This document shows, piece after piece, positions 8,668 through 53,377 of a DNA stretch of 64,000 bases; the stretch's first letter is position 1; each line of letters starts with the position of its first letter. The stretch is from a virus: positions 1 through 64,000 of the IMG/VR virus record IMGVR_UViG_3300042090_003221, one strand, 5' to 3'. Made by a program: the position numbers and the translations under genes. The notes below the pieces were generated by a model. That model saw only the letters and a program-made list of their open reading frames with translations, did not search any database and was not told where the DNA came from.

Positions 8668-9515
8668 GCGGAGGCCATCGCGGCGTCGATCGCCGTCCAG
8701 CTTTCCGGCCCGATTTGACCGTCGATGTCGCAGCCATGCGCGGCCTGGAAGCGCTTGAGCGCCGCGGTCGTCAGCTCGCCGAAGCGGCCATCGACGAGCA
8801 GGCCCGCGTTGGTGAGCTTGTTGAGGTCGGCCTGCAGCGCCGCGACCGAGTGCTGAGTGAAGCCGCTCGGCGTCGGGTGCGCGTGGGTGTCGCCGGGCTC
8901 GCAGCGCGGCGCGCCGCCGTGGCTCGGCGCGGGCGTGACGTCCGGCGCCGCGACGACCTCATGCGGCGCGGGGAGCCCGTATAGAGCGAAGGCCGGAAGG
9001 CTCGCCAGCTTGCCGATGTCCTCGTAGGCGCCCTGCGTGTATTTCACGAGCGTCGCCCACGTCGACCCGTTGGGGTCGCCGACGTCCATGTGACCGCCGC
9101 CGGCCCTGCCGAGGTGGCGGTGGCTGACGATTCCGCGGCCCAGGCCGCCGGGGGCGAGGACGGGCGGGATATTGTAGGCGCGGCAGACCCACGCACCGAT
9201 CGTCGCGGCGAGCTGCAAGCGCGTGTCGGGCAGCTTGTCGGCGTAGCCGGGGATTTCGAGCGAGATCCCCGCCGAATTGAACGCGCACTGCGCCCAGGCC
9301 TTGTATTGCAGCGGCACGAGCTGCGAGAGCTCATTCGAGCTGTCCGTGCCCATGGCGAGATGCGGCGCCGCCTTCGCGCGCGGGTCGCACAACCAAGCGA
9401 GCGAAGGGTCAGCCTCGCCCTCCTCGTCATGATAGATGAACAGATCGTGCCGGATTGGCGTCGGCGTATAATTCGGCGTCGGCCGCTGAATAACGCGCGG
9501 GAGCAACAGGCCCAT
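8664..9515 (-). CDS. Endolysin: N-acetylmuramoyl-L-alanine amidase with peptidoglycan-binding domain
   Basis: A 283-residue enzyme. Residues about 20-160 are an Amidase_2-type domain; likely zinc ligands are H29 (IYHDEE), H142 (GGGHMD) and D147 (GDP). After a Pro-rich linker, residues about 220-280 form a PG_binding_1 domain (LQADLNKLTNAG, FGELTTAALKRFQAAHG, QIGPESWTAI). It should cleave the amide between muramic acid and L-Ala at lysis. No signal peptide, so it needs a holin. A perfect GGAGG site precedes the ATG. Confidence 0.9.
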   Translation of the reverse strand: MGLLLPRVIQRPTPNYTPTPIRHDLFIYHDEEGEADPSLAWLCDPRAKAAPHLAMGTDSSNELSQLVPLQYKAWAQCAFNSAGISLEIPGYADKLPDTRLQLAATIGAWVCRAYNIPPVLAPGGLGRGIVSHRHLGRAGGGHMDVGDPNGSTWATLVKYTQGAYEDIGKLASLPAFALYGLPAPHEVVAAPDVTPAPSHGGAPRCEPGDTHAHPTPSGFTQHSVAALQADLNKLTNAGLLVDGRFGELTTAALKRFQAAHGCDIDGQIGPESWTAIDAAMASA

Positions 9516-14546: not shown

Positions 14547-14951
14547 TTAGCTCGGCGCCTGACCAGCGAGAATGGCGGCAACGCGGGCGCTTGCGATGGC
14601 GCCCGAAATTGCGAGATAGTTGACACCGGAAATGACGTCCGAATTCGTCAACTGGAGGGCTCCCGCGCCTGACGCCATCAAACAGAACAGGCGGACCCTC
14701 GGATCCGTCGAGTTCATAATCGCGGTTTGCTCGGACGTGGAGAACAGGTCCATGAACTCGAAGAAGCTCCAGTCCACTTTCGGCGCCACATAGACGCCGG
14801 GCGCGTGCGCGTTGATCGAGGCGAGGGCGACGGCCTCGGCCGTTCCCGCCGGAAACGAGACGCTGAGGCCTGGGAGGGCGTAAACGTCGCTCCCATCGGA
14901 GTCTGTTGAGATTGTGACTGTGCGCCCGAATGCGTCCGTGATCGTGCTCAT
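14547..14951 (-). CDS. Hypothetical protein, possible fibre assembly partner
   Basis: A 134-residue protein whose ATG overlaps the stop of the 827-residue fibre gene (TGATG). The N-terminus is a beta segment, and the C-terminal part is helical (YLAISGAIASARVAAILAG). The coupling to the fibre suggests a chaperone or fibre-bound partner. Confidence 0.55.
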   Translation of the reverse strand: MSTITDAFGRTVTISTDSDGSDVYALPGLSVSFPAGTAEAVALASINAHAPGVYVAPKVDWSFFEFMDLFSTSEQTAIMNSTDPRVRLFCLMASGAGALQLTNSDVISGVNYLAISGAIASARVAAILAGQAPS

Positions 14952-40496: not shown

Positions 40497-41630
40497 TCAG
40501 CGCACGAGGCGGTTCGCGTTGGGGTAACGCTTCGCGTATTCCGCAGCTGCGGAAGCGTCCTGCGCGATCTTCGGAGTCGGCTTGACCGCGGCCCCCTTGC
40601 GGGCCTCAGCAAGCGTATCGAAGGTCACCTTCAGTACGGCCGAGGGCAGGGTGTCGACGCCCTTGACGCCGAAGGCCTTGAGGCCGAGGCGGTAGTAGTC
40701 GGTCGCGCTATCGCAGGTCACGACCTTGCCGATCGCAGCCTCAACGGACTCCTTCGCGGAGAAGGTCGCTTTGTTGAAGGCGCGCTCCGCCGCGACGGCG
40801 GCAGTGAGAGCCGCGTCCATCGCGGGTCTGGTGACCATATCGTTGTCCTCTTCATCGTTGGCGTTGGGATCGACTTCGCCGTCCGCCGGGCTGGCGGTTT
40901 CGGTTTGGGCGCCGGGGTCGACCTGCTCTTCACTGTCGGTCGCGGGCGTCTCCTCGGCGCCGATCTTGGCGACGAGCGAGTTGAAATGGTTCATGTCTTC
41001 GGGGGAGAGCTTCGAGGCGAGGAAAGAGCGCGCCATCGCGATGGCGTCGCCGTCGCCGTCACCCTCGACGTCTTCGTTGACGGCGCCTTCGCCTCCGCCC
41101 TCGACGCCGCCTTCGCTCTCGCCGACAGCGGCGGGGTCAACCGCGGGGTCCTTGCCCTTGTTTTCGTCGAGCTCTCCGGCGCTGGGCGGCGGCGCAGCGC
41201 TCGGATCCGTCACCGGTTCCGCGTCGTCCTTGGCCTCGATCGGGGCCGAACCCGCCAGCGCGTCGAGCAGCTTCGCGAGGCCCTCGGCGTCCGCGTCGAC
41301 CGCGAGCCGGCCCTCGACCGCCTTGAGCGCAGCCGCGGACAGCACCGGGAGACGCTCCGCATAATTCTTGTGGTTGATGCCGGCGACGATCGACGTGAAG
41401 TCGATTGCTTGATCCTGGGCGAAGCGCGGGGCGAAGTGAGCCGTAATGCCCCCCAGCACCAGCGCCGCCTTGCGAGTAAGGGGCTTACGAGCCATCTGCG
41501 AATTTTCCTTTTCGTTGAAACCGCCGGCTCCGCCGGCCTCCGCGAGCAGAGAAGCGTCCAGCCCCAGGGCCTTCATCGCTTCCTTTGGACTTGCGAAATT
41601 TTGACGCAGAGCCGCGCCGAGAGGGCTCAT
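40497..41630 (-). CDS. Scaffold-like protein (C-terminal part of DUF2213-type proteins)
   Basis: A 377-residue acidic protein. KPLTRKAALVLGGITAHFAP, IVAGINHKNY, and a later block ending AKRYPNANRLVR match the scaffold-like second half of some DUF2213 proteins, in which protease and scaffold are fused. A long Asp/Glu-rich disordered stretch (about 150-270) fits a scaffold. AGGAG lies before the ATG. The frame remains open for about 40 codons upstream without a start codon. Confidence 0.7.
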   Translation of the reverse strand: MSPLGAALRQNFASPKEAMKALGLDASLLAEAGGAGGFNEKENSQMARKPLTRKAALVLGGITAHFAPRFAQDQAIDFTSIVAGINHKNYAERLPVLSAAALKAVEGRLAVDADAEGLAKLLDALAGSAPIEAKDDAEPVTDPSAAPPPSAGELDENKGKDPAVDPAAVGESEGGVEGGGEGAVNEDVEGDGDGDAIAMARSFLASKLSPEDMNHFNSLVAKIGAEETPATDSEEQVDPGAQTETASPADGEVDPNANDEEDNDMVTRPAMDAALTAAVAAERAFNKATFSAKESVEAAIGKVVTCDSATDYYRLGLKAFGVKGVDTLPSAVLKVTFDTLAEARKGAAVKPTPKIAQDASAAAEYAKRYPNANRLVR

Positions 41631-41654: not shown

Positions 41655-41819
41655 TTGATTTGCGTCGCCAAGCTGACCCGTGACCAGCTCGCCGAGAACG
41701 GAGCAAAGGGCGCCGAAGCCCTCAACTCGAAACTGACCCCCGAGCAGCGAAGCGCCTCAGCACGGAAAGCCAGAGCCGCGCAGTTAGCGAAACGACAACA
41801 GTGCTGCCTCAATGACTGA
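41655..41819 (+). CDS. Possible small inserted ORF on the opposite strand
   Basis: About 54 residues from a TTG at 41655. The sequence ([20 protein letters not shown], then [14 protein letters not shown]) resembles a recurrent type of small basic phage protein. It runs against the capsid genes and overlaps the protease gene end by 36 bases. The ribosome site is too close to the start, so it may be a remnant or a chance frame. Confidence 0.3.
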
Positions 41820-42371
41820 CCAGCCGATTTCGGCAGCCGAGTCCCCGACGATGCAGTCCGGCCCGGCTCTCCCCTCTTCGACGAGGGCAAGGTGATTGCC
41901 TATCAAGTCGCGCATGACTCCGTCGTAGGACTCGCCTTGGTAGGTCCCCGGCGTCATGTCGGGGCGGTAGCGATAGCCGCACGATAGTTGTTGCTGTTTG
42001 CCGCTCTTGATGCGGTTGATTGCTTCGCCGTCCCAGAGCGTGAGGGGCGCCTTCAGGTACGGGCGAGCGAAAGAAACATCGGTTCCAACCGCGCCGGCGA
42101 CCTTGTCGTGAGGGTGATCCTCGGCGTCGATCGGCGTGTGCTGGATCAAGATCGGCTTCCCGGCGAAGGAAGGGGCCGCCTTTTCGAGCTCGTCGGGGTG
42201 ACGCAGGAGCTTGTAAATCCGGTTGGATTCGAGCCCGAGCTCGCGCCATCCGGGGATCTCTTTGCCGAGATACGGATTGATGGCCGCCTTGCTGATGTTC
42301 GCCGTGGAGACGCGCAAATGGCCGTCTTCGTCGAAGGTTCGAACCGACGACCTATCGAGCGCGATCAGCAT
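41784..42371 (-). CDS. DUF2213 prohead protease
   Basis: A 195-residue protein from the ATG at 42371. [58 protein letters not shown] and [15 protein letters not shown] are hallmark DUF2213 segments; the His in GNHLALV is the likely nucleophile partner. It matures the prohead. In this phage it is separate from its scaffold. Confidence 0.85.
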
Positions 42372-42413: not shown

Positions 42414-42443
42414 TTGACACGTTAGGACTTTTTGTCCTAATCT
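42414..42443 (+). promoter_or_regulatory. Operator-promoter 1 of the early region
   Basis: TTGACA at 42414-42419 and TAATCT at 42438-42443 (spacer 18). The spacer holds the palindrome TTAGGAC-TTTTT-GTCCTAA (42422-42440), which runs into the -10 box. Drives the genes from 42491. Confidence 0.8.
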
Positions 42444-42490
42444 GTGTTTTGCGGGGTTGAGACGTTCTCCCCCGGGCCGGAGATAGGAAC

Positions 42491-42724
42491 ATGAGGACTG
42501 AACGGATCGCGGACCGCGCCGTGGCGTTCGCCAACAACGTCCGGAAGCTCAATCGCTTCCTCGTTTCGGACCGCGTCACCGACGAGCTGTACGGGTTCAG
42601 GCGCTTCGTCTTGGATGAGCGGAATCTGCGGAGCTACTACGAGCGCCACGAGCCGATCGCGGAATGGCGCGACTTCGAGACCTTCCGGGTCGTGATCGAG
42701 CGGCGCATCGAGTGCGTCGCGTAA
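42491..42724 (+). CDS. Hypothetical early protein, 77 aa
   Basis: First gene after operator-promoter 1; GGAGATAGGA precedes the ATG. The protein is basic and helical ([20 protein letters not shown]). No family recognised. Confidence 0.6.
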
Positions 42725-42731
42725 CCAGCCC

Positions 42732-42749
42732 GCGCCGCTGCGGCGGCGC
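42732..42749 (+). repeat. Intergenic GC hairpin, copy 1
   Basis: GCGCCGC-TGCG-GCGGCGC, seven base pairs with a four-base loop, starting seven bases after the stop codon. The same design recurs at 46122 and 46383. Confidence 0.6.
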
Positions 42750-42773
42750 TATTCCCAGAGGATCGACCCGACG

Positions 42774-42947
42774 ATGCGCCAACCGACGATTTACGAAGCG
42801 CTCAAGGCCCGCCTGGGCCGCGAGCCCAGCAACGCCGAGCTGAAGGCCGACGTTCAGCGAATTCTGCAAGAGGCGTCCGACGTGGCGCTCGTCGCCGCGG
42901 CCGAAGCCGGGCGGCTACCTCACCAGCGAAAGGGAAAACGGAGATGA
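42774..42947 (+). CDS. Small conserved early protein, 57 aa
   Basis: Starts TIYEALKARLGREPSNAELK after Met-Arg-Gln-Pro, a pattern I recognise from small alphaproteobacterial phage proteins, and ends in a basic tail (QRKGKRR). It overlaps the next gene by four bases. Confidence 0.6.
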   Translation: MRQPTIYEALKARLGREPSNAELKADVQRILQEASDVALVAAAEAGRLPHQRKGKRR

Positions 42948-43144
42948 AACCCGAAATCTTCGCAGTTATTTGGTGCGATTTCGTTCCGCTGTCTCTGCCG
43001 TATCCCGGCGCCGGCGAAGCCGTCGCGGCGGCGCAAGCGATGCGCGCCAAAGCCGGGAAGAACGGCGTCACGCTTCAACACCTTCGCGCGGTCCGCTTGG
43101 ACGCGGCGAACAAGCTTCACACTCTTTGGCAACCGGAGAACTAA
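42944..43144 (+). CDS. Hypothetical early protein, 66 aa
   Basis: Coupled to the previous gene by ATGA. A hydrophobic start (IFAVIWCDFVPLSLPYPG) precedes an Ala-rich helix. No family recognised. Confidence 0.55.
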   Translation: MKPEIFAVIWCDFVPLSLPYPGAGEAVAAAQAMRAKAGKNGVTLQHLRAVRLDAANKLHTLWQPEN

Positions 43145-43147
43145 CAG

Positions 43148-43390
43148 ATGACGACGGGCTTTTACTGCACCGTGAAGCGCGGCGAGAAGACCGCATGGCT
43201 GCTCGGCCCGTTCGCCGAGCACGAGAAGGCGAAAGAATGGGCGTTCGCCGCGTCATGCAAGGCGAGCGATATCGACCCGCGCGTCGCCTTCGACCCCTAT
43301 GGGACGGCGGCGATCACCCGCGAGGGCGTCGAGATCGCCGAGCTGCCGAAGGGCAAACTCAATCACCTTTTCCCGAAGCTTTTCAACTAG
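43148..43390 (+). CDS. Hypothetical early protein, 80 aa
   Basis: A small alpha/beta-like protein (YCTVKRGEKTAWLLGPFAEH, KAKEWAFAASCKA). The layout of strand, KAKEW helix and strand resembles the protein at 44099, so the two may be distant paralogues. Confidence 0.55.
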   Translation: MTTGFYCTVKRGEKTAWLLGPFAEHEKAKEWAFAASCKASDIDPRVAFDPYGTAAITREGVEIAELPKGKLNHLFPKLFN

Positions 43391-43399
43391 GAGGCGTGC

Positions 43400-43897
43400 A
43401 TGGCCGAGGCCGCGAAGCCCAGGATACGGGTCCGATATTCTTCGGTCGACGGGTACGGCAAGACCGACTCGTTTTGCGCGATCGAAGGCGCCCGCAAATT
43501 CGCCTTCCACCACGTCGGCAAGCATGCCGAGTTCGGTACGGACTACGCCGTGAGCTGTGACGGCGTCGGCAAAATCAGGGTCGAGGGCTGCACGCTGGCC
43601 GAGCTGTTCGGCCGCGTCGAGCCCGAGGAACCGACCGACCTCGAGCTCGAGATCGCCGAATTCGGCGACGGTCAGGCCGTGTGGGAAAGCGGCTACGCGC
43701 AAATGTGCGGAATGCCCGCCAAGCGGCTCTTCAACACGAAGGAAGACGACGCCCGCCGCGCCGCGGAACATGCGGCCTGGATGGCGGTCGAGCGCGACAG
43801 CAACGGCCAGCCGGTCCACCGCTCGCCCGGCTGCACATGCAGCGCGATGCAGTTGGCTCTCGTCGGGTGCGAATGCGAAGCCGACGGCCCGTTCTGA
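43400..43897 (+). CDS. Hypothetical early protein with N-terminal paralogue at 44360
   Basis: A 165-residue protein. The first 70 residues (RVRYSSVDGYGKTDSFCAIE, GARKFAFHHVG, DYAVSCDGVGKIRVEGCTL) are clearly related to those of the gene at 44360. The C-terminal part has several Cys and may bind metal (SPGCTCSAM, VGCECEADG). Function unknown. Confidence 0.6.
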   Translation: MAEAAKPRIRVRYSSVDGYGKTDSFCAIEGARKFAFHHVGKHAEFGTDYAVSCDGVGKIRVEGCTLAELFGRVEPEEPTDLELEIAEFGDGQAVWESGYAQMCGMPAKRLFNTKEDDARRAAEHAAWMAVERDSNGQPVHRSPGCTCSAMQLALVGCECEADGPF

Positions 43898-43925
43898 CCG
43901 TGGCGGTTTGTCGCGTGTTCTGCGC

Positions 43926-43955
43926 TTGACTTATTAGGACAAAAAGTCCTAATCT
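43926..43955 (+). promoter_or_regulatory. Operator-promoter 2 of the early region
   Basis: TTGACT (43926-43931), spacer 18, TAATCT (43950-43955). The palindrome has arms ATTAGGAC/GTCCTAAT around AAAAA (43933-43953). Drives the genes from 44003. Confidence 0.8.
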
Positions 43956-44002
43956 AGCTCTGCGGGGCGGAGTGGTTCGCCCCCGGACCGGGAGTTCCCG
44001 AG

Positions 44003-44086
44003 ATGACCGCGTTTTTCGAGACCGCCGCTTGGTTCTTCGTCTTCGGCATGCTCGCCCGCGAATATCTGACCGGCAACGTGCGGTAA
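44003..44086 (+). CDS. Micro-protein, 27 aa
   Basis: First frame after operator-promoter 2, with GGAG upstream of the ATG. It encodes a hydrophobic peptide (AAWFFVFGMLAREYLTG). Could be a tiny membrane protein or a translated leader. Confidence 0.4.
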   Translation: MTAFFETAAWFFVFGMLAREYLTGNVR

Positions 44087-44098
44087 CAGGAGGTCGCG

Positions 44099-44347
44099 AT
44101 GGCTTACGAGATCGTCAAGGGCGCCGGAAAGACCATGTGGCTGATCGAGGCCGCCGCCGGCGAGGGTTACATGCGCTTCTATTCGAAGCGGGAGGCGCAG
44201 GCCTGGATCGACCGGGCGCTGAAGTCCGAAGCCAAGGACGCCGAATTCGAGGTCTACCGCCGCGCTCGCCGGCTCGAAAACGCCCACGAGTATCTCGCTC
44301 GCCGCGCCGTGCGCACCGCGCGCCCCGTTCAGCTCGAATTGTTCTGA
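44099..44347 (+). CDS. Hypothetical early protein, 82 aa
   Basis: Strong AGGAGG before the ATG. The protein starts with a short beta segment (YEIVKGAGKTMWLIEAAAG), then a helix (SKREAQAWIDRALKSEAKD), then a basic helical tail. No family recognised. Confidence 0.6.
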   Translation: MAYEIVKGAGKTMWLIEAAAGEGYMRFYSKREAQAWIDRALKSEAKDAEFEVYRRARRLENAHEYLARRAVRTARPVQLELF

Positions 44348-44359
44348 GGAGCCCCGCCC

Positions 44360-44779
44360 ATGCTGACCGTTCGCTACAGCGCCGTTGATGGCGCCCAGAT
44401 CACCCGGAAGTTCAAGACGCCCGAGGGAGCCCGCAAGTTCGCGGTTCGCTACGTCGGCGAGACGCCGGAATTTGGCTCGCGCTACGCGGTCAGCTTCGAC
44501 GGCGTCGGCAAGGTGACCGTCGAGGGCTGCACGGTCGCCGAGCTGTTCGCCGGACCCGTAAAACCCGAAATGGTTCCGCTGCACAGCGAGGACTGCGACG
44601 CGCCGACCGAATACGCGCTCAAGAGCGAGTGCGAAGAGATCGTGGTCGACGCGGACAGCGACGAGTGGGGCACTCACCTTCATTACGGCTGGGCTCGCAA
44701 GACCGATCTCGCGCGCTGGAAGGCTGAGCACGAGGCCCGCCTCGCCGCCGACCTCTACGCCGACGACATACCGTTCTGA
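44360..44779 (+). CDS. Hypothetical early protein, paralogue of 43400
   Basis: A 139-residue protein whose first 65 residues (LTVRYSAVDGAQITRKFKTP, GARKFAVRYVG, YAVSFDGVGKVTVEGCTVAE) parallel the gene at 43400. The C-terminal halves differ. The 107 bases after its stop show nothing certain. Confidence 0.6.
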   Translation: MLTVRYSAVDGAQITRKFKTPEGARKFAVRYVGETPEFGSRYAVSFDGVGKVTVEGCTVAELFAGPVKPEMVPLHSEDCDAPTEYALKSECEEIVVDADSDEWGTHLHYGWARKTDLARWKAEHEARLAADLYADDIPF

Positions 44780-44887
44780 AGCTGAAAAGGACCTCGGCCG
44801 CGAAGGCGCAAAGGTCCCTCGCAAGCTAAGTCAGGTTTTCGAAACTGCGTCAAGAAACTTTGCGCCCCAACCATGAGGAACCTGATC

Positions 44888-44977
44888 ATGATCAGCAAGA
44901 TACAGAGAGAGGCGCTCGACGACGAGCGCGCAATCGAGGCGTGGAACGAGCGCCGTGCGCTGGGGCAGCCGCTGTGA
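44888..44977 (+). CDS. Micro-protein, 29 aa
   Basis: A charged helical peptide (QREALDDERAIEAWNERRAL) with GAGGAA upstream, coupled to the next gene by GTGA overlap. Confidence 0.45.
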   Translation: MISKIQREALDDERAIEAWNERRALGQPL

Positions 44978-45195
44978 GTCGCGCACCAAGGCGCCCGAGC
45001 GACGATGCCCTCCGCACCGCGGCGGAGTGGCTCGATGTCAACGAAGGTGATGAAGGGGAGGGGGACGACTGCCGAGCGGTCGCCGACTGGCTTCGCCGGC
45101 AAATCGAAGAGGCCCGGGTCAGGAAGATCGCGCGCGAGACGGGCTTCCCGGTCAAGGTTGTGCGCAAGCTGCTTGCGGAGGACGAAGGCCCATGA
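44974..45195 (+). CDS. Small helical early protein
   Basis: A 73-residue protein from the GTG that overlaps the previous stop. The C-terminal 20 residues (KIARETGFPVKVVRKLLAE) look like a helix-turn-helix. Possible DNA-binding role. Confidence 0.55.
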   Translation: MSRAPRRPSDDALRTAAEWLDVNEGDEGEGDDCRAVADWLRRQIEEARVRKIARETGFPVKVVRKLLAEDEGP

Positions 45196-45512
45196 CCTTC
45201 GACGACGCCTTCCGCGAGATCGGCCGCCGGAGCCTGCCCGGCGGCGGCAAGACAATGGGCGCCGACGAGATCGCGTTCCGAGGCCGCCCGTTCGGTCGCT
45301 GGCTGTCCGCGGTCTCGCGTGTGCGCCTGCGCGACCCGCGCGAGAGCTACATGACGAACGCCGCGCACAGGATCCGCGACTCCAAGGTCGGCGGGGCCGG
45401 CTATTGGGTCGACCTGCGCGTCGCCGGCGACGTCACCGACGACGAGCTCGCCGAGATCCGCGCCCTTGCCCAGGCCGAAGACGCCCGCCCGGTCCGCGTC
45501 CGCCGCGCATGA
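45192..45512 (+). CDS. Hypothetical early protein, 106 aa
   Basis: Coupled to the gene before it by ATGA. Basic in the middle (RGRPFGRWLSAVSRVRLRDP), with an acidic C-terminal helix. No family recognised. Confidence 0.55.
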   Translation: MTFDDAFREIGRRSLPGGGKTMGADEIAFRGRPFGRWLSAVSRVRLRDPRESYMTNAAHRIRDSKVGGAGYWVDLRVAGDVTDDELAEIRALAQAEDARPVRVRRA

Positions 45513-45550
45513 ATTTTCGCACGCTGCGACAAAAAGCCCGACTTTCCCTC

Positions 45551-45579
45551 TTGACCATTAGGACAAAATGTCCTAATTC
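45551..45579 (+). promoter_or_regulatory. Operator-promoter 3 of the early region
   Basis: TTGACC (45551-45556), spacer 17, TAATTC (45574-45579). The palindrome has nine-base arms ATTAGGACA/TGTCCTAAT around AAA (45557-45577). Drives the LPD29 gene. Confidence 0.8.
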
Positions 45580-45603
45580 TGTTTCCGGAGAGAGGAACCT
45601 GAG

Positions 45604-46113
45604 ATGACCAAGCACTATTCCGTCACCGAGACCGCCAAGCTCATCCGCGCCGCGCTCAAGGAAGCCTTTCCGGAGACCAAGTTCTCCGTCCGGTCTTCGA
45701 GCTATTCCATGGGCGCGTCGATCGACGTCTCTTGGACTGACGGCCCGATCAGCGCCCAGGTCGATCTGATCGTGAAGGGCTTCGCCGGCGCTTCCTTCGA
45801 CGGGATGCAGGATCTCAAGAGCCACCACAGCTCGATGCTGAACGGCGAAAAGGTCAGCTTCGGCGCCGACTACGTCCACACCAGCCGCGAGGTTTCCAAG
45901 GCCAAGGTCGCCGCCATCGCCGCGCTGCTCGAGGCCAAGGGTCGAGACCACTGGCTGACCATTTGCGTCCAGGCCGGTCATCCGTTCCCGACCCGCGCCG
46001 TCCAGCGCCACGACAACGCCCAGGACGTGGCGCGCTCGATCCTCCAGCACGTCGCTGACGCCAAATTCGAGGGCCGCAAGGCCTCCGCCGTCGCCGAGCG
46101 GCTCGCCGCCTGA
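45604..46113 (+). CDS. LPD29-domain protein
   Basis: A 169-residue protein matching large polyvalent-protein-associated domain 29: LIRAALKEAFPETKFSVRS, SYSMGASIDVSWTDGP and FDGMQDLKSHH. LPD29 occurs in phages and plasmids, often as stand-alone small proteins; its biochemical role is not established. It follows operator-promoter 3 closely, so it should be expressed early. Confidence 0.8.
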   Translation: MTKHYSVTETAKLIRAALKEAFPETKFSVRSSSYSMGASIDVSWTDGPISAQVDLIVKGFAGASFDGMQDLKSHHSSMLNGEKVSFGADYVHTSREVSKAKVAAIAALLEAKGRDHWLTICVQAGHPFPTRAVQRHDNAQDVARSILQHVADAKFEGRKASAVAERLAA

Positions 46114-46121
46114 CACAGCCC

Positions 46122-46139
46122 GCGCCGCGCCAGCGGCGC
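46122..46139 (+). repeat. Intergenic GC hairpin, copy 2
   Basis: GCGCCGC-GCCA-GCGGCGC, same stem as copy 1, starting nine bases after the LPD29 stop. Confidence 0.6.
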
Positions 46140-46158
46140 TCACCCGAGAGCCTCCGCC

Positions 46159-46374
46159 ATGATCAAGCCGACCGCCGAAGACATCGCCGCCCAGATCCGC
46201 GCCAATCCCGACCTGCGCCGCCGCGTCGCCTCCGCGCTCGCCGAGACCGCCGCCTACGTCGAAAAGGAGGGGCGCCGCTCCGCTGACCTCCGCCCCGCGG
46301 ACGTCACCAAAATATTCGAGTTCTACAAGGCGCACGCCGAGAAGCTGCGCACCGCGCTCGATCTCGCCGCCTGA
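46159..46374 (+). CDS. Hypothetical early protein, 71 aa
   Basis: A helical protein (PTAEDIAAQIRANPDLRRRV, then KIFEFYKAHAEKLRTAL). No family recognised. Flanked by intergenic hairpins. Confidence 0.6.
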   Translation: MIKPTAEDIAAQIRANPDLRRRVASALAETAAYVEKEGRRSADLRPADVTKIFEFYKAHAEKLRTALDLAA

Positions 46375-46382
46375 CATTCCCC

Positions 46383-46400
46383 GCCCCGCGCGAGCGGGGC
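46383..46400 (+). repeat. Intergenic GC hairpin, copy 3
   Basis: GCCCCGC-GCGA-GCGGGGC: seven base pairs closed by a GNRA-type loop, nine bases after a stop codon. The stem differs from copies 1 and 2 at compensating positions, which suggests that pairing is kept. Confidence 0.6.
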
Positions 46401-46420
46401 TCATCCGAGGAACGCGGACC

Positions 46421-46597
46421 ATGCCCAGAGACAAAAGCGACGTGCGCACCGACATAAAGCGCGAGAACGCGGCGCGGAAGCGGCTGCTCGATCGCATAGT
46501 GCTGGCGAAGCAAAACTTGGCCCTATGCAACGGGCGTTTGGCGTCGCTGAAGCAAGAGCTGGCGAATGCGCCGGAGCCTCCGAAATACTTCTATTGA
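46421..46597 (+). CDS. Small coiled-coil early protein, 58 aa
   Basis: A basic coiled coil (KRENAARKRLLDRIVLAKQN) ending in EPPKYFY. GAGGAACG lies before the ATG. No family recognised. Confidence 0.5.
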   Translation: MPRDKSDVRTDIKRENAARKRLLDRIVLAKQNLALCNGRLASLKQELANAPEPPKYFY

Positions 46598-46605
46598 GGT
46601 CGACC

Positions 46606-46845
46606 ATGCACAACCCCGCCCCATGCAAGCGCCGCAAAGGCCTCTATCTCCGCTACAGCGCGAAGAATTGGTCCGACGAATTCGTGTGCTGCGCGTGCGG
46701 CAAGGCGCGCAGGTTCAGCCTCAATTATCTCGGCTTGCGCCGCGTGCCCATGTGCGACGGCGAAAGCATCAAGGCGGGCGAGGCGCTGGAATGGGAAGCA
46801 TGGCGAGCGCTCACCGACCAAGCCAATCGAAAGGAAACCGCCTGA
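46606..46845 (+). CDS. Small Cys-rich early protein
   Basis: A 79-residue protein with VCCACGK and a later MCDG; may bind zinc. The start ATG lies nine bases after the previous stop. No family recognised. Confidence 0.55.
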   Translation: MHNPAPCKRRKGLYLRYSAKNWSDEFVCCACGKARRFSLNYLGLRRVPMCDGESIKAGEALEWEAWRALTDQANRKETA

Positions 46846-47066
46846 TGCGCGGCATGAACCTTTCAGCCGTCTTCCGTCAGGGCACGGGCAAGCGCTACGA
46901 GCAGCGCCCGCCGGCCAATTGCGTCGCCGCGCGCCGCGCCTGGGACCACTTCTCGACGCTCGGCGAGATCGAGTGGCTTCAGTTGCTCGACGGCTATTGG
47001 GGCGCGCAGCTCCGCGGCGAGCGCGACGTCACCGAGATCGAGGCGATCGAGTTTCGCCGTTACTAA
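46845..47066 (+). CDS. Hypothetical early protein, 73 aa
   Basis: Its ATG overlaps the previous stop (TGATG). The C-terminus is acidic and helical (ERDVTEIEAIEFRRY). No family recognised. Confidence 0.55.
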   Translation: MRGMNLSAVFRQGTGKRYEQRPPANCVAARRAWDHFSTLGEIEWLQLLDGYWGAQLRGERDVTEIEAIEFRRY

Positions 47067-47079
47067 AAGGAGACGCATC

Positions 47080-47280
47080 ATGCACAACTACGGTTCAACC
47101 CCTTCCGACTTTCGCGTCGGCCAGCGCGTCGAGATCTCCCCGCACTTCGATCTGTGGATGAGGGGCGCCCGGTGCGGCGCCGTCGTCAAGATCGGCCGCG
47201 AGCGCGTCCATGTCCGCCTCGATCTCTTGCCGGGCCGCGCGCTCCGCTTCTCGGCGACTGACCTAATCGACCGGAGCTGA
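47080..47280 (+). CDS. Small SH3-like early protein
   Basis: A 66-residue protein built like a small beta barrel: FRVGQRVEISPHFDLWMRG, GAVVKIGRERVHVRLD, then FSATDLI. Many small phage proteins with this pattern have KOW/SH3-like folds. Strong AAAAGGAGA site. Confidence 0.55.
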   Translation: MHNYGSTPSDFRVGQRVEISPHFDLWMRGARCGAVVKIGRERVHVRLDLLPGRALRFSATDLIDRS

Positions 47281-47284
47281 CGCC

Positions 47285-47710
47285 ATGACGACCATCGACC
47301 TGATCGACAACGCGATTCACACACTGGAGAAGGTCGCCCACGACCTGACGGCGCTGCATAATCTGCGCGCCACAGATCTGGACGCGGAAGCCTTCGAGGC
47401 GAAGCTGAAGGGCGGCGCTCCGCGAGACAGCCTCGAATGGATGACGGACACGGCCACGAGGCTCGCCGAGGTCGACGCCACAATCGCCATCTTGCGCAAG
47501 GGCGTCTCCTATCGCCCGATCGAGACAGCGCCCGTCGACGAGTGCGTGATCCTCGCCACGACCGGCGGCTGCGTCGGCGAGGCCGTCTATGGCGAGAACG
47601 CCGAGGATCCGACGTGGCGCTGGATCCACGCCGACCAGCCGCTGCATCCCAACTTGAAGCCGCTCGGCTGGATGCCGCTGCCGCCGGAGATCGAAACCCC
47701 CGCAACCTGA
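47285..47710 (+). CDS. Early protein with DUF551-like C-terminus
   Basis: A 141-residue protein. The first 70 residues form helices; the rest (YRPIETAPVDECVILATTGG, then NLKPLGWMPLPP) resembles the DUF551 family common in phages. Function unknown. Confidence 0.6.
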   Translation: MTTIDLIDNAIHTLEKVAHDLTALHNLRATDLDAEAFEAKLKGGAPRDSLEWMTDTATRLAEVDATIAILRKGVSYRPIETAPVDECVILATTGGCVGEAVYGENAEDPTWRWIHADQPLHPNLKPLGWMPLPPEIETPAT

Positions 47711-47726
47711 CCCAGGAGCCCGAGAG

Positions 47727-48005
47727 ATGCTCACCAAGGCCGAACACAACCGTCTCGTGAAGTGGGAGACGCGCGTCAACGAGATCGTCGAGCAGCTCCG
47801 CGCGCTCGTCGAGGCGAAGCGCGGGGCGATCGAGGCGCGCCGCGAGAAACACGACGCCCGGTCCGAGAAGTGGCTCGAGAGCGAGAAGGGGCTGGAGGCG
47901 ACCGAGAAGCTCGAGGCCGACGAAAGCCGCCTCGCCGAGCTCGACCAATGCGCCGACGACCTCGAGAACGCGATCAGCACCTTGCCGACGGAAGAGGAGG
48001 AATGA
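47727..48005 (+). CDS. Coiled-coil early protein, 92 aa
   Basis: Almost wholly a charged coiled coil (NEIVEQLRALVEAKRGAIEA). Last gene before operator-promoter 4. Confidence 0.6.
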   Translation: MLTKAEHNRLVKWETRVNEIVEQLRALVEAKRGAIEARREKHDARSEKWLESEKGLEATEKLEADESRLAELDQCADDLENAISTLPTEEEE

Positions 48006-48014
48006 CCGCGACAG

Positions 48015-48035
48015 CGAGCCGCACGAGGCGGCTCG
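48015..48035 (+). terminator. Hairpin terminator-like element before operator-promoter 4
   Basis: Arms CGAGCCGC/GCGGCTCG pair over eight bases around ACGAG, followed by GTTGTTGTTT. The T-rich tail is imperfect, but its position between the end of one unit and the next promoter fits a terminator. Confidence 0.55.
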
Positions 48036-48043
48036 GTTGTTGT

Positions 48044-48073
48044 TTGACACGATAGGACTTTTTGTCCTATCGT
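48044..48073 (+). promoter_or_regulatory. Operator-promoter 4 of the early region
   Basis: TTGACA (48044-48049), spacer 18, TATCGT (48068-48073). Nine-base arms CGATAGGAC/GTCCTATCG around TTTTT (48050-48072). The outer bases differ from other copies but remain paired. Confidence 0.8.
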
Positions 48074-48094
48074 AGGCGCGAAGGGATTTTGCAG

Positions 48095-48757
48095 ATGACG
48101 CACCCGTTCACAGTCTCCGGCCTTGGCGAGGCGCCGTTCAAGCTCGTCGCCGTGGCGCAGATCCCGCCGATCTCGCTCGCGGAATCGAACCCCGCGGCCT
48201 ACCAGCGCGGAATCGCCATGCTCCCGCCCGGTTGCGGGACGTGCAAGCATTGCGGCATGGCGATCATGCTTAATTTCATCGTTGAATCGGCGGAAGGCCG
48301 CCGGTCCGCGATCGGATGCGACTGCATCCGCAAGCTCGGCCACGTCGACAAGCCGCTCGTCAAGGCCGTTGACGAGGCCGCCCGCAAGCTGGCGCGCGAG
48401 AAGCGCCAAGCGGCCGCCGCCGTAAAGCGAGAGGCCAGGGCGGCCGCGTGGCGCGCCGAGAGGGCGCAATGGGAGATCGACAACGCCGAGCGGCTCGCGC
48501 GGGAGAAGGCCGAGCGCGAGGCGGCCGCCGCGGCGCTCGTCGCCCGGGCGCAGCGGTTCGCCTTCATGCTCCCGGCTCTGCGGAGCGCGGAAAGCTCATG
48601 GTGCAGCGAGATCGCCGACGCGATCGAGGCGGGGCGCCCGCCGACCGGCCGCGCCGTCGAGATCCTCCGCGACATTTACGGGCGCCGGTTCGGCCGGAAG
48701 GGCTCGGCGAAGTTCGAGGCGGCCGCCGCGCGGTTCGACGAGACGGTCTCCGCCTGA
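48095..48757 (+). CDS. Zinc-finger coiled-coil early protein
   Basis: A 220-residue protein. CGTCKHCGM and GCDCIRKLG form a probable zinc site in the first third. Residues about 100-165 are a long Ala/Arg/Glu coiled coil, and the last 50 are helical. AAGGGA lies before the ATG. Similar proteins occur in phage early regions without known function. Confidence 0.6.
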   Translation: MTHPFTVSGLGEAPFKLVAVAQIPPISLAESNPAAYQRGIAMLPPGCGTCKHCGMAIMLNFIVESAEGRRSAIGCDCIRKLGHVDKPLVKAVDEAARKLAREKRQAAAAVKREARAAAWRAERAQWEIDNAERLAREKAEREAAAAALVARAQRFAFMLPALRSAESSWCSEIADAIEAGRPPTGRAVEILRDIYGRRFGRKGSAKFEAAAARFDETVSA

Positions 48758-48804
48758 CACAATCCTCGTCGGCTCACGGGGTCGGCATGATCAAGGAAAA
48801 CGCC

Positions 48805-49011
48805 ATGGCAAAGACATTCAAGCTCCACTGGATTCGCGCCGACGGTCAGGGATCGCTCCCGATGGGCGCGTTCCCTTCACGCACCGCGGCGGAAGCCGCC
48901 ATCCCTGCCGCGAAAACCGAGATGCTCGATCAATGCGCCGTCGGCGAAGGGCACGAGGCAGGGATCGAGGCCGGACGGTTCGAGGTCAACGAAGTCGAGG
49001 AGTCCCAATGA
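48805..49011 (+). CDS. Hypothetical early protein, 68 aa
   Basis: The ATG at 48805 is preferred over one at 48787 because AAGGAAA lies directly before it. Beta-alpha pattern (FKLHWIRADGQGSLPMGAFP, then RTAAEAAIPAAKTE). No family recognised. Confidence 0.55.
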   Translation: MAKTFKLHWIRADGQGSLPMGAFPSRTAAEAAIPAAKTEMLDQCAVGEGHEAGIEAGRFEVNEVEESQ

Positions 49012-49208
49012 CCGACCAAATGCTCGCCGCCCTTGTCGGCGCGATCTCCGGCATCTCGATCGGCGTGTTCTGCGCGGCGACCGGCTATTCCTTCGGATAC
49101 CGCCACGGGATCCTCGCCGGTTGGACGGCGGGTTTCAAAGCGCAGCGCGCGCGGCTCCGGGCGGAGGGCTTCGTCGTGACGGGGCCGATTCCGAAGGCTC
49201 CGGAGTGA
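49008..49208 (+). CDS. Single-pass membrane protein, 66 aa
   Basis: ATGA overlap with the gene before. N-terminal membrane segment (MLAALVGAISGISIGVFCAA) and a basic cytoplasmic tail. Function unknown. Confidence 0.6.
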   Translation: MTDQMLAALVGAISGISIGVFCAATGYSFGYRHGILAGWTAGFKAQRARLRAEGFVVTGPIPKAPE

Positions 49209-49266
49209 TCTACCGAGGCGCAATGTCGCGGCCCTGATTTAGGGCGCCGGAGCGGCTCAGCTCGAC

Positions 49267-49294
49267 TTGACATTAGGACAAAAGGTCCTAATGT
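49267..49294 (+). promoter_or_regulatory. Operator-promoter 5 of the early region
   Basis: TTGACA (49267-49272), spacer 16, TAATGT (49289-49294). Longest palindrome of the set: ten-base arms ACATTAGGAC/GTCCTAATGT around AAAAG (49270-49294), touching both promoter boxes. Confidence 0.8.
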
Positions 49295-49315
49295 AAGGGC
49301 GAGGAGAGTTTCGCG

Positions 49316-49558
49316 ATGACCAAGCTTCAGGCCTTGCTAGACGAATCCAACGCCGCCGCCAACGGTTCCGTCGCGTATCTTGCCGGGAACCTGATCGAAG
49401 AGGCGGAAGACAACGCCAATCAGACGGCGTTCATCGAAAAGGCCGTTCCTGTCGAGGAACGCGACCGCATGGCCGAAGCGAGCCTCGTTGATCTTCTCGC
49501 CTACTGCAAGGAACCCGAAATCTTGGCGTGGTTCGCCCAGCGTGGGATCGTCGCGTGA
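49316..49558 (+). CDS. Hypothetical early protein, 80 aa
   Basis: First gene after operator-promoter 5, with GAGGAGAG upstream. Acidic and helical. No family recognised. Confidence 0.6.
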   Translation: MTKLQALLDESNAAANGSVAYLAGNLIEEAEDNANQTAFIEKAVPVEERDRMAEASLVDLLAYCKEPEILAWFAQRGIVA

Positions 49559-49797
49559 TGCCCGCCACCGCCGAGCAGGTCTTCGCCGTGATCAAGAACA
49601 ACGGCGCCGTGCCGTTCCGCCAGCAGCCGACCGAAAAGGCGCTGCGCTACTACGCCGCCCTGATCGTCAAGAGCGGCGCCCGGTTCGCGGCCGACCAGCA
49701 CGCGCGGGACGCTTGGACCGGAATCACGAATTGGGCGCTGTCCAAGAACATCGCCCGGCTCGAGGCCGAAATCGCCAGAAAGGGAGCCCAGGCATGA
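49558..49797 (+). CDS. Hypothetical early protein, 79 aa
   Basis: Its ATG overlaps the previous stop (TGATG). Helical, with TEKALRYYAALIVKSGARFA. No family recognised. Confidence 0.55.
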   Translation: MPATAEQVFAVIKNNGAVPFRQQPTEKALRYYAALIVKSGARFAADQHARDAWTGITNWALSKNIARLEAEIARKGAQA

Positions 49798-50039
49798 CCC
49801 GCCTCACCGAAACAACCCCGGTCTACCTGATCAACACAAAGGCGAACCGCATCGTTCGCAAGTTCGGCAACTTCGACGCCTTCGCCCGCTTTGAGGGCAT
49901 TGCGCTCGGCTCGAACATGCACCTTTTCACAATGCGCGAAATGTCGACGGCCGGTTTCGTCTACGCCGAATGCGACGACACCGGCGACACGATCGCGACG
50001 ATATCGTCCTACCACGTCAACAAGGCGCTCGCCGCCTAA
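49794..50039 (+). CDS. Hypothetical early protein, 81 aa
   Basis: ATGA overlap with the gene before. Beta-rich (VYLINTKANRIVRKFGNFDA). No family recognised. Confidence 0.55.
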   Translation: MTRLTETTPVYLINTKANRIVRKFGNFDAFARFEGIALGSNMHLFTMREMSTAGFVYAECDDTGDTIATISSYHVNKALAA

Positions 50040-50059
50040 CCTCGGAGGTACAAATCTGA

Positions 50060-51433
50060 ATGTCCAACCGCACGATCGCCCTGCCGGTCACCGTCGCTGA
50101 TATCGTCGAGGAATACGACGCCAAGATTGCCGGGCTCGGCGAGTCCATCGCCCGCTTCGAAGCCGCGCAAACCGCGATGAGGTCGGCGACCTGCATCCAA
50201 GGCGTCTATGCCGAGAGCGTGTTCACCGACGCCCGGTTCTACGAGAACGCGATCAAGCTGAACTTGCGCAAGTCGGGCTGGAAGGCGGTCTATCGCCGCC
50301 TGGACGTTGAGCGCCTCGCCAGCGCCAAGGACAAGAAGCTTTTCGAGCAGACGCTCGCGGATCCGCCGGCGCTGACGCTCGACAACGCCAAGGCGACGTT
50401 CGGCAAATACCTGTTGCAGCCGCGCTTTCATGCGCTGCGCGGACTGGCCGAGGTTTTCAGCGGGCTCGATCCTGCCTACAAGTCGCACAGCAAGGTCAAG
50501 ATCGGCGTCGCCGGCTTGCCGAAGCGGGTCATCATCGGGAACGTCGGCGGCTATGGCTCTTGGGGCCGCGACCGGCTGCGCGATATCCTGAACGCGCTCG
50601 CAGCCGCCCAGGGGAAGCCTCTCGTCGAGCACGACGAGCTCACGCGCGTCGACCGCCTGGGCGGGTTCGAGCACCGCGCCGGCGAGGTCGCCTTCGACGG
50701 CTCCCCGATCAAGGCCTATCGCGACGGCAAGGACGTGGAATGGACGCCGCCGGCGCGCGGTGTCACGCTCAAGAAATTCCTCAACGGCAACGGGCACGTC
50801 ATTTTCGATGCCCCGACGCTGCTCGACATCAACCGCGCGCTGGCGGAGTTCTACGGCGAGGTCTTGCCGGACGCCGAAGACGACGCGCCCAAGGCGAAGC
50901 GCGCCAGCACGAACGTCTCGGCTGATCTCCAGTTCTACCCGACCCCGCGCAAGGCGATCGAGACCGTGCTTGACGAGATCGGGCTGGCGCCGACGCGCGA
51001 CCGCTGGAATGACGCCACGCCGGCGCGGGCGGTTCTCGAGCCCTCATGCGGCGACGGCCGGATCCTCGACGTGATCCGCGAGCGCGGCCACCGCGGGCTC
51101 GGCGTCGAGGTCCACCCGGCCCGGGCCGCCGCGGCGAAGACCAAGGGGCACGCCGTCATCGTCGCGAACTTTCTCGAGCGCCCGGCGGAGCCGCTCTTCG
51201 ACTTCGTGGTTCTCAACCCGCCCTTCAGCGGCCGCCACTGGATGAAGCATCTCGCCCACGCGAAACGCTTCGTGAAGCCCGGCGGGACGCTGGCCTGTAT
51301 CCTGCCGGCGAGCGCGGAATATGACCACGGGGTCGCCAAGGAACACGGCGGCGAGTGGCACGACCTTCCGGTCGCCAGCTTCAGCGAGAGCGGCACGAAT
51401 ATCCCGACCGGCTTCTTGGTCTGGCGGGCATGA
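50060..51433 (+). CDS. DUF4942-type DNA adenine methyltransferase
   Basis: A 457-residue protein. Residues about 1-290 match DUF4942, the N-terminal partner domain of some phage methyltransferases. The C-terminal domain has SAM motif I (EPSCGDG, 327-333), an acidic GVE (348-350) and the catalytic NPPF (386-389), as in N6-adenine methyltransferases. FYPTPRKAIETVLDE is a usual lead-in. It may protect phage DNA from restriction or mark it. No cognate nuclease is nearby. Confidence 0.85.
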   Translation: MSNRTIALPVTVADIVEEYDAKIAGLGESIARFEAAQTAMRSATCIQGVYAESVFTDARFYENAIKLNLRKSGWKAVYRRLDVERLASAKDKKLFEQTLADPPALTLDNAKATFGKYLLQPRFHALRGLAEVFSGLDPAYKSHSKVKIGVAGLPKRVIIGNVGGYGSWGRDRLRDILNALAAAQGKPLVEHDELTRVDRLGGFEHRAGEVAFDGSPIKAYRDGKDVEWTPPARGVTLKKFLNGNGHVIFDAPTLLDINRALAEFYGEVLPDAEDDAPKAKRASTNVSADLQFYPTPRKAIETVLDEIGLAPTRDRWNDATPARAVLEPSCGDGRILDVIRERGHRGLGVEVHPARAAAAKTKGHAVIVANFLERPAEPLFDFVVLNPPFSGRHWMKHLAHAKRFVKPGGTLACILPASAEYDHGVAKEHGGEWHDLPVASFSESGTNIPTGFLVWRA

Positions 51434-51621
51434 TCTGGCCGACCCGCTACGAGGTCGTCCGGGTCCTGCAAGACGGCGACGGCGGCAGGACCTGGACCGT
51501 GCCGCACAGCTCGGCCCGCACCCTGGAAGAGGCCCGCCAGCTCGCCGAGCGCGAGCTCGCCCACTGGATTGTCGTCGAGAGGCGCGTCGTCGCCTCGTCA
51601 AAGAAGCAGGAGAAACCTTGA
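51430..51621 (+). CDS. Hypothetical early protein, 63 aa
   Basis: ATGA overlap with the methyltransferase gene. Compact beta-alpha pattern (YEVVRVLQDGDGGRTWTVPH, EARQLAERELAHW). No family recognised. Confidence 0.55.
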   Translation: MIWPTRYEVVRVLQDGDGGRTWTVPHSSARTLEEARQLAERELAHWIVVERRVVASSKKQEKP

Positions 51622-52298
51622 TGCGAACGGAACCGACCTTCACATGGATCGAACCCCCGATCGGGCCGCAGCCGCTGCCCGCCTGGGCGAAGGGCGTCGA
51701 GATCGAGTGGATGGGCCACTTCTGCAACCCTCCGCATCTCAAGGTCAAGACGGTCGGCAGCCCTATGCCGGAGGGCGTGTTGTGGCACAAGGACGGCGCC
51801 CGCTACTGGCGCCGGAGCCCCGAGGGCTTCCACGAGGAGAATTCGCACGCCGGTTCGCTGACATGGAGCCAAGTGGATGAGGCTTGGCTGACCTCGCGCG
51901 ATGACGGCTATGGCGGCCGGTGCTGGCGGATCCGGATGGCGCCCGAGGGGCAGTTTGAGCCGCCCTTCGACGTGGTGTTGCTGCGCGGCCCGTGGAACGG
52001 CGACTATCCCGCGGACTGCGACGCGGTCGCCTACTTCGACATGCGGAAGCGCTACGGGCGCGCCGACAGCCGGCCGCGCCCTTGGCACAAGGAAACGTTC
52101 ACCGGCGGTGTCTACATGACGCACGACCTCATCGTGCGCTTGCTCGCGCGGTTTCAGCCGCATCTGCGCATCGCGCGCGTCGAGCATCACGGCCGCGTCA
52201 GGATCGAGCCGGTGAAGCCCGAATGGGACGCTCCGAAGTTCGTCATCATCGAGCGCGAGCGGCAGGAGTATCTGGCGAAGCGCCAAGCCGCGGAGTGA
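51621..52298 (+). CDS. Hypothetical early protein, 225 aa
   Basis: Starts at the ATG that overlaps the previous stop. Trp-rich and beta-rich with repeated W/Y positions; the C-terminal 60 residues are basic. Some resemblance in length and Trp/His layout to the protein at 5451, but I cannot confirm common origin. Confidence 0.6.
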   Translation: MRTEPTFTWIEPPIGPQPLPAWAKGVEIEWMGHFCNPPHLKVKTVGSPMPEGVLWHKDGARYWRRSPEGFHEENSHAGSLTWSQVDEAWLTSRDDGYGGRCWRIRMAPEGQFEPPFDVVLLRGPWNGDYPADCDAVAYFDMRKRYGRADSRPRPWHKETFTGGVYMTHDLIVRLLARFQPHLRIARVEHHGRVRIEPVKPEWDAPKFVIIERERQEYLAKRQAAE

Positions 52299-52310
52299 GG
52301 CGGGCGAAAA

Positions 52311-52339
52311 TTGACAAACAGGACAAAAAGTCCTAACAT
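52311..52339 (+). promoter_or_regulatory. Operator-promoter 6 of the early region
   Basis: TTGACA (52311-52316), spacer 17, TAACAT (52334-52339). Shortest palindrome: AGGAC-AAAAA-GTCCT (52320-52334). Drives the HD hydrolase gene. The weaker palindrome may mean looser repression. Confidence 0.75.
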
Positions 52340-52375
52340 TCCCCGTACGGGGTTTTACGCAAAAGGACGGAACCG

Positions 52376-52822
52376 GTGACCCCAACCCTGATCGAGACCG
52401 AAGCCTTTGTCCGCCGCCTGTTCTTCGGCGTCGTCGACAAGGCCGGGGAGCCTTACGTCGAGCATTGCGTCCGCGTCATGGAGGGTCTGCCCGCGGCCGC
52501 GACGGACGACGAGCGCCACGCCGCGCTCTTGCATGATGTCCTCGAGGACACGGACCTGACCGCGCGCGACCTGCACTTGAGCGGCTACAGCGAGCGGACG
52601 GTCTGGCTTGTCCAGCGCTTGACGAAGTGGAAAGGCGCCGACTATGGCGCCTACGTCGCCGCGATCACAGCCTCGCGCGACGCCGGCCTGATCGCCATCA
52701 AGCGCGCCGACCTAAAGGATAATTCCGACCCGGCGAGGCTCGCGTTGCTGCCGGCGCGCGAGCGCGAGCGGCTCGCGGCGAAATATGCGTCGGCGCGGGA
52801 GATCTTGGAGGCATGGAAGTGA
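52376..52822 (+). CDS. Single-domain RelA/SpoT-type HD hydrolase (MESH1/SAH-like)
   Basis: A 148-residue protein starting at GTG. The HD metal site of (p)ppGpp hydrolases is visible: H30 (VEHCVRV), H53-D54 and E57-D58 (LLHDVLEDTD), D112 (ADLKDN) and N116. Length fits small alarmone hydrolases, which remove the 3' diphosphate of (p)ppGpp, though some MESH1-type enzymes act on NADPH. It sits behind its own operator-promoter and next to the gene for a RelA/SpoT-like fold. Confidence 0.8.
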   Translation: MTPTLIETEAFVRRLFFGVVDKAGEPYVEHCVRVMEGLPAAATDDERHAALLHDVLEDTDLTARDLHLSGYSERTVWLVQRLTKWKGADYGAYVAAITASRDAGLIAIKRADLKDNSDPARLALLPARERERLAAKYASAREILEAWK

Positions 52823-53121
52823 AAACCTCGCACCCGGTAGACGGGCGGACGCTGAGGCGCACGCGCCCGCTGCCTCATGACCCCGCGCTGCGCAAGAGGG
52901 CGAGAAAGTTCTCGGCTCTCCTCAAGGTGCTCGATATGTCCCAGACGCAAGTCGGGCGGTTCCTCGACTTGGACGGGCGCACGGTGCGCCGCTGGGCGTC
53001 CGGCGACAGGCCGATTCCGATCGCCGTCGAGATCGTCCTGACCTACATGGCGAGGAATGGCCTGACGCCGAAGGAGATCCTCGCCGCCTGCAAGATCAAG
53101 CGACAGCTGGACGTGAGATGA
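52813..53121 (+). CDS. Helix-turn-helix regulator
   Basis: A 102-residue protein whose centre (MSQTQVGRFLDLDGRTVRRW) is a helix-turn-helix of the XRE/YdaS kind. It starts inside the end of the HD gene, overlapping by ten bases, so it is in the same transcript. It could be the regulator of the AGGAC operators, or a separate control switch; nothing in the sequence proves either. Confidence 0.65.
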   Translation: MEVKTSHPVDGRTLRRTRPLPHDPALRKRARKFSALLKVLDMSQTQVGRFLDLDGRTVRRWASGDRPIPIAVEIVLTYMARNGLTPKEILAACKIKRQLDVR

Positions 53122-53152: not shown

Positions 53153-53377
53153 ATGCAATTCAAGATCACGAACTACTGCGACCTCGACGGGGTGCCCGCC
53201 GTAGTCGCGACGCTGGACACGCCGAAGGGACTCGGAACCTACTGCTTCGAATACGTCGAGGGCCGGTGGCGGGAGCCGGAAGACAACGGCGCCGACGTCA
53301 TGAGCAAGTCCCGGGTCGTGACCCAGGACGTCTTCGAGCGCATGTTCCCTGACGTCGGCCTCCCGACGGCGCCGTAA
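53153..53377 (+). CDS. Hypothetical early protein, 74 aa
   Basis: AAGGAGA precedes the ATG. Beta-rich first half (FKITNYCDLDGVPAVVATLD). The last + strand gene; its stop is one base from the stop of the convergent effector gene, so no terminator lies between. Confidence 0.6.
   Translation: MQFKITNYCDLDGVPAVVATLDTPKGLGTYCFEYVEGRWREPEDNGADVMSKSRVVTQDVFERMFPDVGLPTAP

Follow-up and report, generated by a model that had tools for sequence, protein, structure and literature searches.

Six promoters with one palindromic operator and a predicted Aca-like repressor in a phage gene block

What controls a long run of small phage genes in which every operon starts with the same palindrome? This question is raised by a block at 42.4-53.4 kb, on the + strand, of virus record IMGVR_UViG_3300042090_003221 from IMG/VR. 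The block lies in the 64,000-nucleotide stretch that we analysed (the window; the first 64 kb of a record of 115,811 b, GC 0.65). It consists of six consecutive operons with about 29 genes, and one operator-promoter heads each operon. A sequence-only reading had counted about 27 genes downstream of these promoters and had suggested that a single repressor could silence them all, which would explain stable lysogeny or timed expression. A single-repressor regulon with timed expression is well supported as a prediction, but stable lysogeny is the less likely purpose. The shared operator is real, and the block is probably a dispersed, self-limiting regulon of an Aca-like kind, in which a helix-turn-helix (HTH) protein encoded within the block is predicted to bind and repress all six promoters.

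Six promoters with one operator

The -35 boxes reported at 42414, 43926, 45551, 48044, 49267 and 52311 were all located there, each followed by an exact AGGAC-N5-GTCCT. All six operators are intergenic and have the same orientation, and they fill the spacer between a TTGAC[ACT] -35 box and a TA-rich -10-like box. With the spacer length in bp given after N, sites 1 to 6 are TTGACA-N18-TAATCT (42414-42443, +; palindrome TTAGGACTTTTTGTCCTAA, 42422-42440), TTGACT-N18-TAATCT (43926-43955, +; ATTAGGACAAAAAGTCCTAAT), TTGACC-N17-TAATTC (45551-45579, +; ATTAGGACAAAATGTCCTAAT), TTGACA-N18-TATCGT (48044-48073, +; ACGATAGGACTTTTTGTCCTATCGT), TTGACA-N16-TAATGT (49267-49294, +; ACATTAGGACAAAAGGTCCTAATGT), and TTGACA-N17-TAACAT (52311-52339, +; AGGACAAAAAGTCCT). 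Site 6 heads the operon of the HTH gene, and its palindrome, at 52320 between the -35 and -10 boxes, is 41 bp ahead of that operon. The operator is 26-52 bp from the downstream start at five sites, while at site 2 the nearest called open reading frame (ORF) is a spurious antisense call.

The five-base centres are A/T tracts as had been noted (AAAAA, TTTTT, AAAAT, and AAAAG). The gap between the -35 box and AGGAC is 2-4 bases, narrower than the 1-6 bases reported earlier. The outer arms had also been described as variable yet paired. This is true for site 4 (ACGAT/ATCGT) and site 5 (ACATT/AATGT), which have 10-bp arms, but site 6 has a five-base arm only. The arms are 7-8 bp at sites 1-3.

When the whole contig was scanned, exactly six exact copies of AGGAC-N5-GTCCT were found, all at 42.4-52.3 kb. 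The motif is not frequent by chance, since a first-order shuffle is expected to hold 0.035 copies, and 200 shuffles contained no copy with a -35 box in front. The operator strings that we tried did not occur in the literature searched.

A candidate repressor inside the block

The best candidate for the repressor is the protein predicted from 52813-53121 (+), the second gene of the operon under the sixth operator, with the recognition helix DGRTVRRW. Two HTH proteins of the window, at 315 and 52813, had been put forward as regulators. The helix and the operator association support 52813, whereas 315 has no RTxRRW helix and no nearby site.

The association was examined in viral contigs scanned for TTGAC and AGGACN5GTCCT (120 loci among the matches listed, 1.03 Mb). 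Control loci were those with TTGAC and a palindrome scrambled without changing its composition (120 loci, 1.02 Mb). The viral scan for the true palindrome is loose and holds many chance matches, and therefore the analysis relied only on spacing and gene context. The gap between TTGAC and AGGAC was 4 or 5 bases in 96 of 124 cases among the matches listed, while the control was much flatter. With the 52813 protein as query, phmmer found at least 13 homologs in the test loci listed, 11 of which had an E-value of 0.004 or lower. None of them was more than 1.5 kb from a site, and the control gave one spurious match (E 0.47). The recognition helix R-T-x-R-R-W/Y is common to these homologs. Iteration made a broad hidden Markov model spread into the XRE superfamily at large, and for this reason the model was left out of the family claims. 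Across 21 independent loci outside the window, which include the phage G281 and the IncL/M plasmids described below, the HTH gene is downstream of an AGGAC promoter on the same strand in 18.

A protein-only search with the 52813 protein led to the IncL/M plasmids. In these plasmids TAGGACAAAATGTCCTA lies in a promoter-like stretch directly ahead of a JAB-domain gene and a 52813 homolog, and it is the sole exact or one-mismatch AGGACN5GTCCT of the 59-kb plasmid. A DUF4942 gene is also present in that region. The IncL/M HTH protein as query had no viral relatives, and the palindrome was absent from the alphaproteobacterial plasmids that carry the closest DUF4942 relatives. Most elements with the AGGAC operator have one to three sites each. 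Phage G272 has six, one within the terminase gene and five outside, and phage G281 has four and an HTH helix (RTVRRW) identical to that of 52813. In both elements the sites are dispersed over 7-12 kb and an R-T-x-R-R-W gene is downstream of the last site. In G281 the sites stand at the start of a recombination operon and next to an integrase-like gene, and thus the regulon there may reach core phage functions.

Other arrangements of the operator were also seen. In Burkholderiales and Pleomorphomonas, five loci (L135, L140, L148, L150, and L154) share an element in which two near-identical AGGAC promoters stand 2118 bp apart. An R-T-x-R-R-W HTH gene separates the two, and ParA/ParB-like genes lie further out; L143 has one site of this element. 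Five loci with Clostridial XRE regulators (L136, L141, L142, L146, and L151; helix DQSLYSKYE) have two or three tandem TAGGAC-N5-GTCCTA around the -35 box. About 330 bp upstream of a Bradyrhizobium phage homolog (RTARRW) is a variant form of the palindrome, TAGGGC-N5-GCCCTA (L284, 1337-1353), hinting at operator drift.

The 52813 protein has 102 aa, and AlphaFold modelled its HTH core with a predicted local distance difference test score of about 95. When the family profile was searched against all PDB chains, Aca1 came first (E 3e-8), followed by 7xi5 (a 65-aa regulator, probably Aca10 from its length and chain number), HigA-2, Aca2, and Aca3. Foldseek of the AlphaFold model also placed Aca2 and Aca1 on top (E 0.05-0.07). 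In both comparisons the family resembles autorepressors of the Aca type and not prophage repressors.

Aca (anti-CRISPR-associated) proteins repress acr-aca operons and so switch off anti-CRISPR genes; they have been described as acting on a single operon, the one in which they are encoded. An inverted repeat is reported to lie within the core promoter in every Aca family, and the family represses that promoter (PMC9410906). The acr-aca operons with Aca1 and Aca2 in Pseudomonas and Pectobacterium phages (PMC9410906, PMC9410881) are similar to the block in that a small HTH protein is encoded in an operon that it apparently controls and the inverted repeat lies within a strong core promoter, and it is Aca1 and Aca2 that the profile and fold match best. 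They differ from it in having one operon rather than six promoters and about 29 genes, and no known acr is found here. The Aca1 operator was published as TTAGGCACAATGTGCCTAA and is also quoted as TTAGGCACAATGTGCCTAATCT and ATTAGGCACAATGTGCCTAATCT (PMC9410881). The last form has a 19-bp frame and outer arms identical to those of site 2 (ATTAGGACAAAAAGTCCTAATCT), TTAGGCACAATGTGCCTAATCT resembles TTAGGACAAAAAGTCCTAATCT, and TTAGGCACAATGTGCCTAA has its outer arms and -10 context in common with TTAGGACAAAAAGTCCTAA. However, the inner half-site is AGGCAC in Aca1 and AGGAC here, and the single protein sequence has no direct match to Aca1.

Gene content and predicted shut-off

Operon 1 (42491-43897, +) has five small ORFs of unknown function, of which 43400-43897 is paralogous to 44360-44779 in operon 2 (44099-45512, +), which has four such ORFs and a possible short ORF at 44004. 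Operon 3 (45604-48005, +) has about eight ORFs and starts with an LPD29 protein (45604-46113; Pfam E 4e-24). The first of the three ORFs in operon 4 (48095-49208, +) encodes 220 aa, and its PHROG match is weak and of unknown function. Operon 5 (49316-52298, +) has six ORFs, including one for a DUF4942 and DNA methyltransferase protein (50060-51433). Operon 6 starts with a SpoT-like HD phosphohydrolase (52376-52822, +; PHROG 990 E 1e-33, RelA/SpoT model E 7e-11), possibly an alarmone-degrading counter-defence enzyme. This gene overlaps the HTH gene (52822/52813), which is followed by a gene for a 74-aa protein of unknown function (53153-53377, +). Apart from the LPD29 protein, the DUF4942-methyltransferase, the hydrolase and the HTH protein, the products of the block are mostly 60-220 aa long and have no family match.

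The head genes flanking the block run on the - strand, opposite to it. On one side is a DUF2213 protein (41784-42371, -), and on the other are large - strand genes and then the portal gene. A RecT gene and an integrase-like gene are located elsewhere in the contig, and from these the phage is probably temperate. A megablast search of the block against phages gave no match, and the protein at 40497-41630, used as a probe for related phages, had none in viral contigs. A second + strand gene set is located at 104-115.8 kb of the contig, with paralogs of the window genes 8664-9515 (54% identity) and 14547-14951 (49%). The start of a - strand ORF at 79821-81710 reads like a cytosine DNA methyltransferase, and the ORF is interrupted by a Hint/LAGLIDADG intein.

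We favour, as rather probable, a reading in which the block is one regulon jointly shut off by the Aca-like protein that it encodes. When naked phage DNA enters the cell, the strong promoters would be fired by host RNA polymerase, and about 29 small proteins, probably accessory or counter-defence proteins, would be made together with the HTH protein. A dimer of this protein would then bind the 15-25 bp palindrome between the -35 and -10 boxes of its own promoter and of the five others, and exclude RNA polymerase. The location of the operator in an optimally spaced spacer argues for such occlusion. Since the predicted repressor is self-encoded, the outcome would be a brief early burst of expression and then shut-off of the whole block, ahead of the point at which the opposite-strand head operon must be transcribed, and shut-off might also spare that operon antisense transcription. 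The autorepressor principle of Aca would thus have spread from one operon to six. It is possible, though we hold this more tentatively than the regulon itself, that a single Aca-like protein acts as master off-switch for a counter-defence island, with about 27 small proteins of unknown function under six near-identical operators.

Several results weigh against this reading. Three of the 21 loci (L054, L080, and L092) have no HTH gene downstream of the site. The AGGAC site was absent near ten relatives of the L054 HTH protein (an RTSRRW homolog) in other viral contigs, and near 30 chromosomal Rhizobiales loci from a family-profile search of 249 genomes of that order. Because these relatives have no AGGAC site, the helix does not fix the operator, and the family has no one set operator. 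CI-like (YKQYE) and Clostridial (SLYSKYE) repressors also sit at AGGAC-N5-GTCCT, and therefore the repressor cannot be told from the operator alone. Foldseek gave no match below E 0.001. The single 52813 protein did not find Aca1 among PDB sequences with phmmer up to E 5, and the profile was needed for both Aca1 and Aca2; for this reason we call the protein Aca-like rather than a member of the Aca1 family. As for defence and anti-CRISPR functions, the methyltransferase was the only match to a curated defence family among the block genes tested and no anti-CRISPR was recognised, though acr genes are difficult to recognise by sequence. The main evidence for the predicted pairing of 52813 with the operator is the in-operon arrangement, and neither helix nor operator singly is proof.

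The same palindrome might belong to a lysogeny repressor, with a CI-like protein silencing the block in the prophage and induction opening it. The phage is, as noted, probably temperate, and in many other viral loci the YKQYE-helix repressors adjoin AGGACN5GTCCT, in some of them together with a divergent Cro-like gene. However, the contig yielded no protein of the YKQYE type, and the phage has a separate divergent pair (90012-90248, -; 90321-90848, +), made up of HTH_31 and a Cro-like ORF, which by its anatomy looks like the lysogeny switch. The 52813 gene is not within this region (90-91.8 kb). The palindromes there (GCTAC-N5-GTAGC at 90257, 90306, and 91773) have the 5-5-5 geometry of the AGGAC operator but a different sequence. 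Since the CI/Cro-like pair has its own operator, lysogeny is less likely as the purpose of the block, and control of the six sites by a lysogeny repressor seems unlikely. It is slightly less likely still that a regulator from the host or a co-resident element binds the sites, so that expression tracks host state or prior occupancy. The operator is widespread, occurring in Clostridia, in the Burkholderiales/Pleomorphomonas mobile element, and in IncL/M plasmids, and thus a resident repressor could act in trans, but the regulon itself holds a fitting HTH gene, which is under one of the six operators, and in other loci the HTH gene travels with the operator.

HigA-2 and MqsA are among the profile matches, and together with the overlap of the operon 6 genes they would fit a toxin-antitoxin-like pair, in which the HTH antitoxin partner of the HD enzyme also controls the other promoters. 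But the SpoT-like hydrolase belongs to no known toxin family and Aca1 outscores the antitoxins in the profile search, which makes such a pair improbable. The palindrome between -35 and -10 could also be bound by an activator in the fashion of MerR. MerR-type promoters need 19-20 bp spacers, and all six spacers here are 16-18 bp and already optimal; we regard activation as the least probable of these alternatives.

Related systems and significance

Dispersed operators in many promoters under one phage repressor are found in phiC31 (conserved inverted repeats) and L5 (stoperators). Those are lysogeny repressors, unlike here, where the CI/Cro-like module is separate. The nearest described multi-promoter cases are the p576 regulon and the SIRV2 early genes. 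In the conjugative plasmid p576, one repressor controls its own and other dispersed promoters of an establishment regulon, so that counter-defence genes, mostly of unknown function, are expressed for a short time when the plasmid enters a cell (PMC8708921). The architecture of one repressor gene with its own and other dispersed promoters is present in the block as well, where repression and a similar short-lived expression on entry are predicted. The differences are that p576 is from Gram-positive hosts, that its Reg operators lie beside the promoters and do not fill the spacer, and that three promoters were described. SIRV2 has many small early genes with one regulatory sequence, for which shut-off by an Aca-like protein, Aca8, is assumed (PMC11065993), but it is a virus of archaea whose promoters are of the TATA/BRE type and mostly serve single genes, and its Aca8 has a winged HTH. 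No bacterial phage with an Aca-type operator over several promoters was found in the literature searched, which covered few subscription journals. The block is best read as a predicted phage version of Aca or plasmid-establishment regulation, extended over six promoters.

The HTH/operator module and the DUF4942 gene are common to the phage block and the IncL/M leading region and link the two. The operator offers a sequence handle on counter-defence genes that have no recognisable homologs. If the prediction is true, new anti-defence genes could be read directly off the block, and AGGAC-N5-GTCCT in a promoter could be a bait motif for more, as in G272 and G281. Bacterial phages would then, like conjugative plasmids and archaeal viruses, run early accessory regulons with one self-limiting switch.

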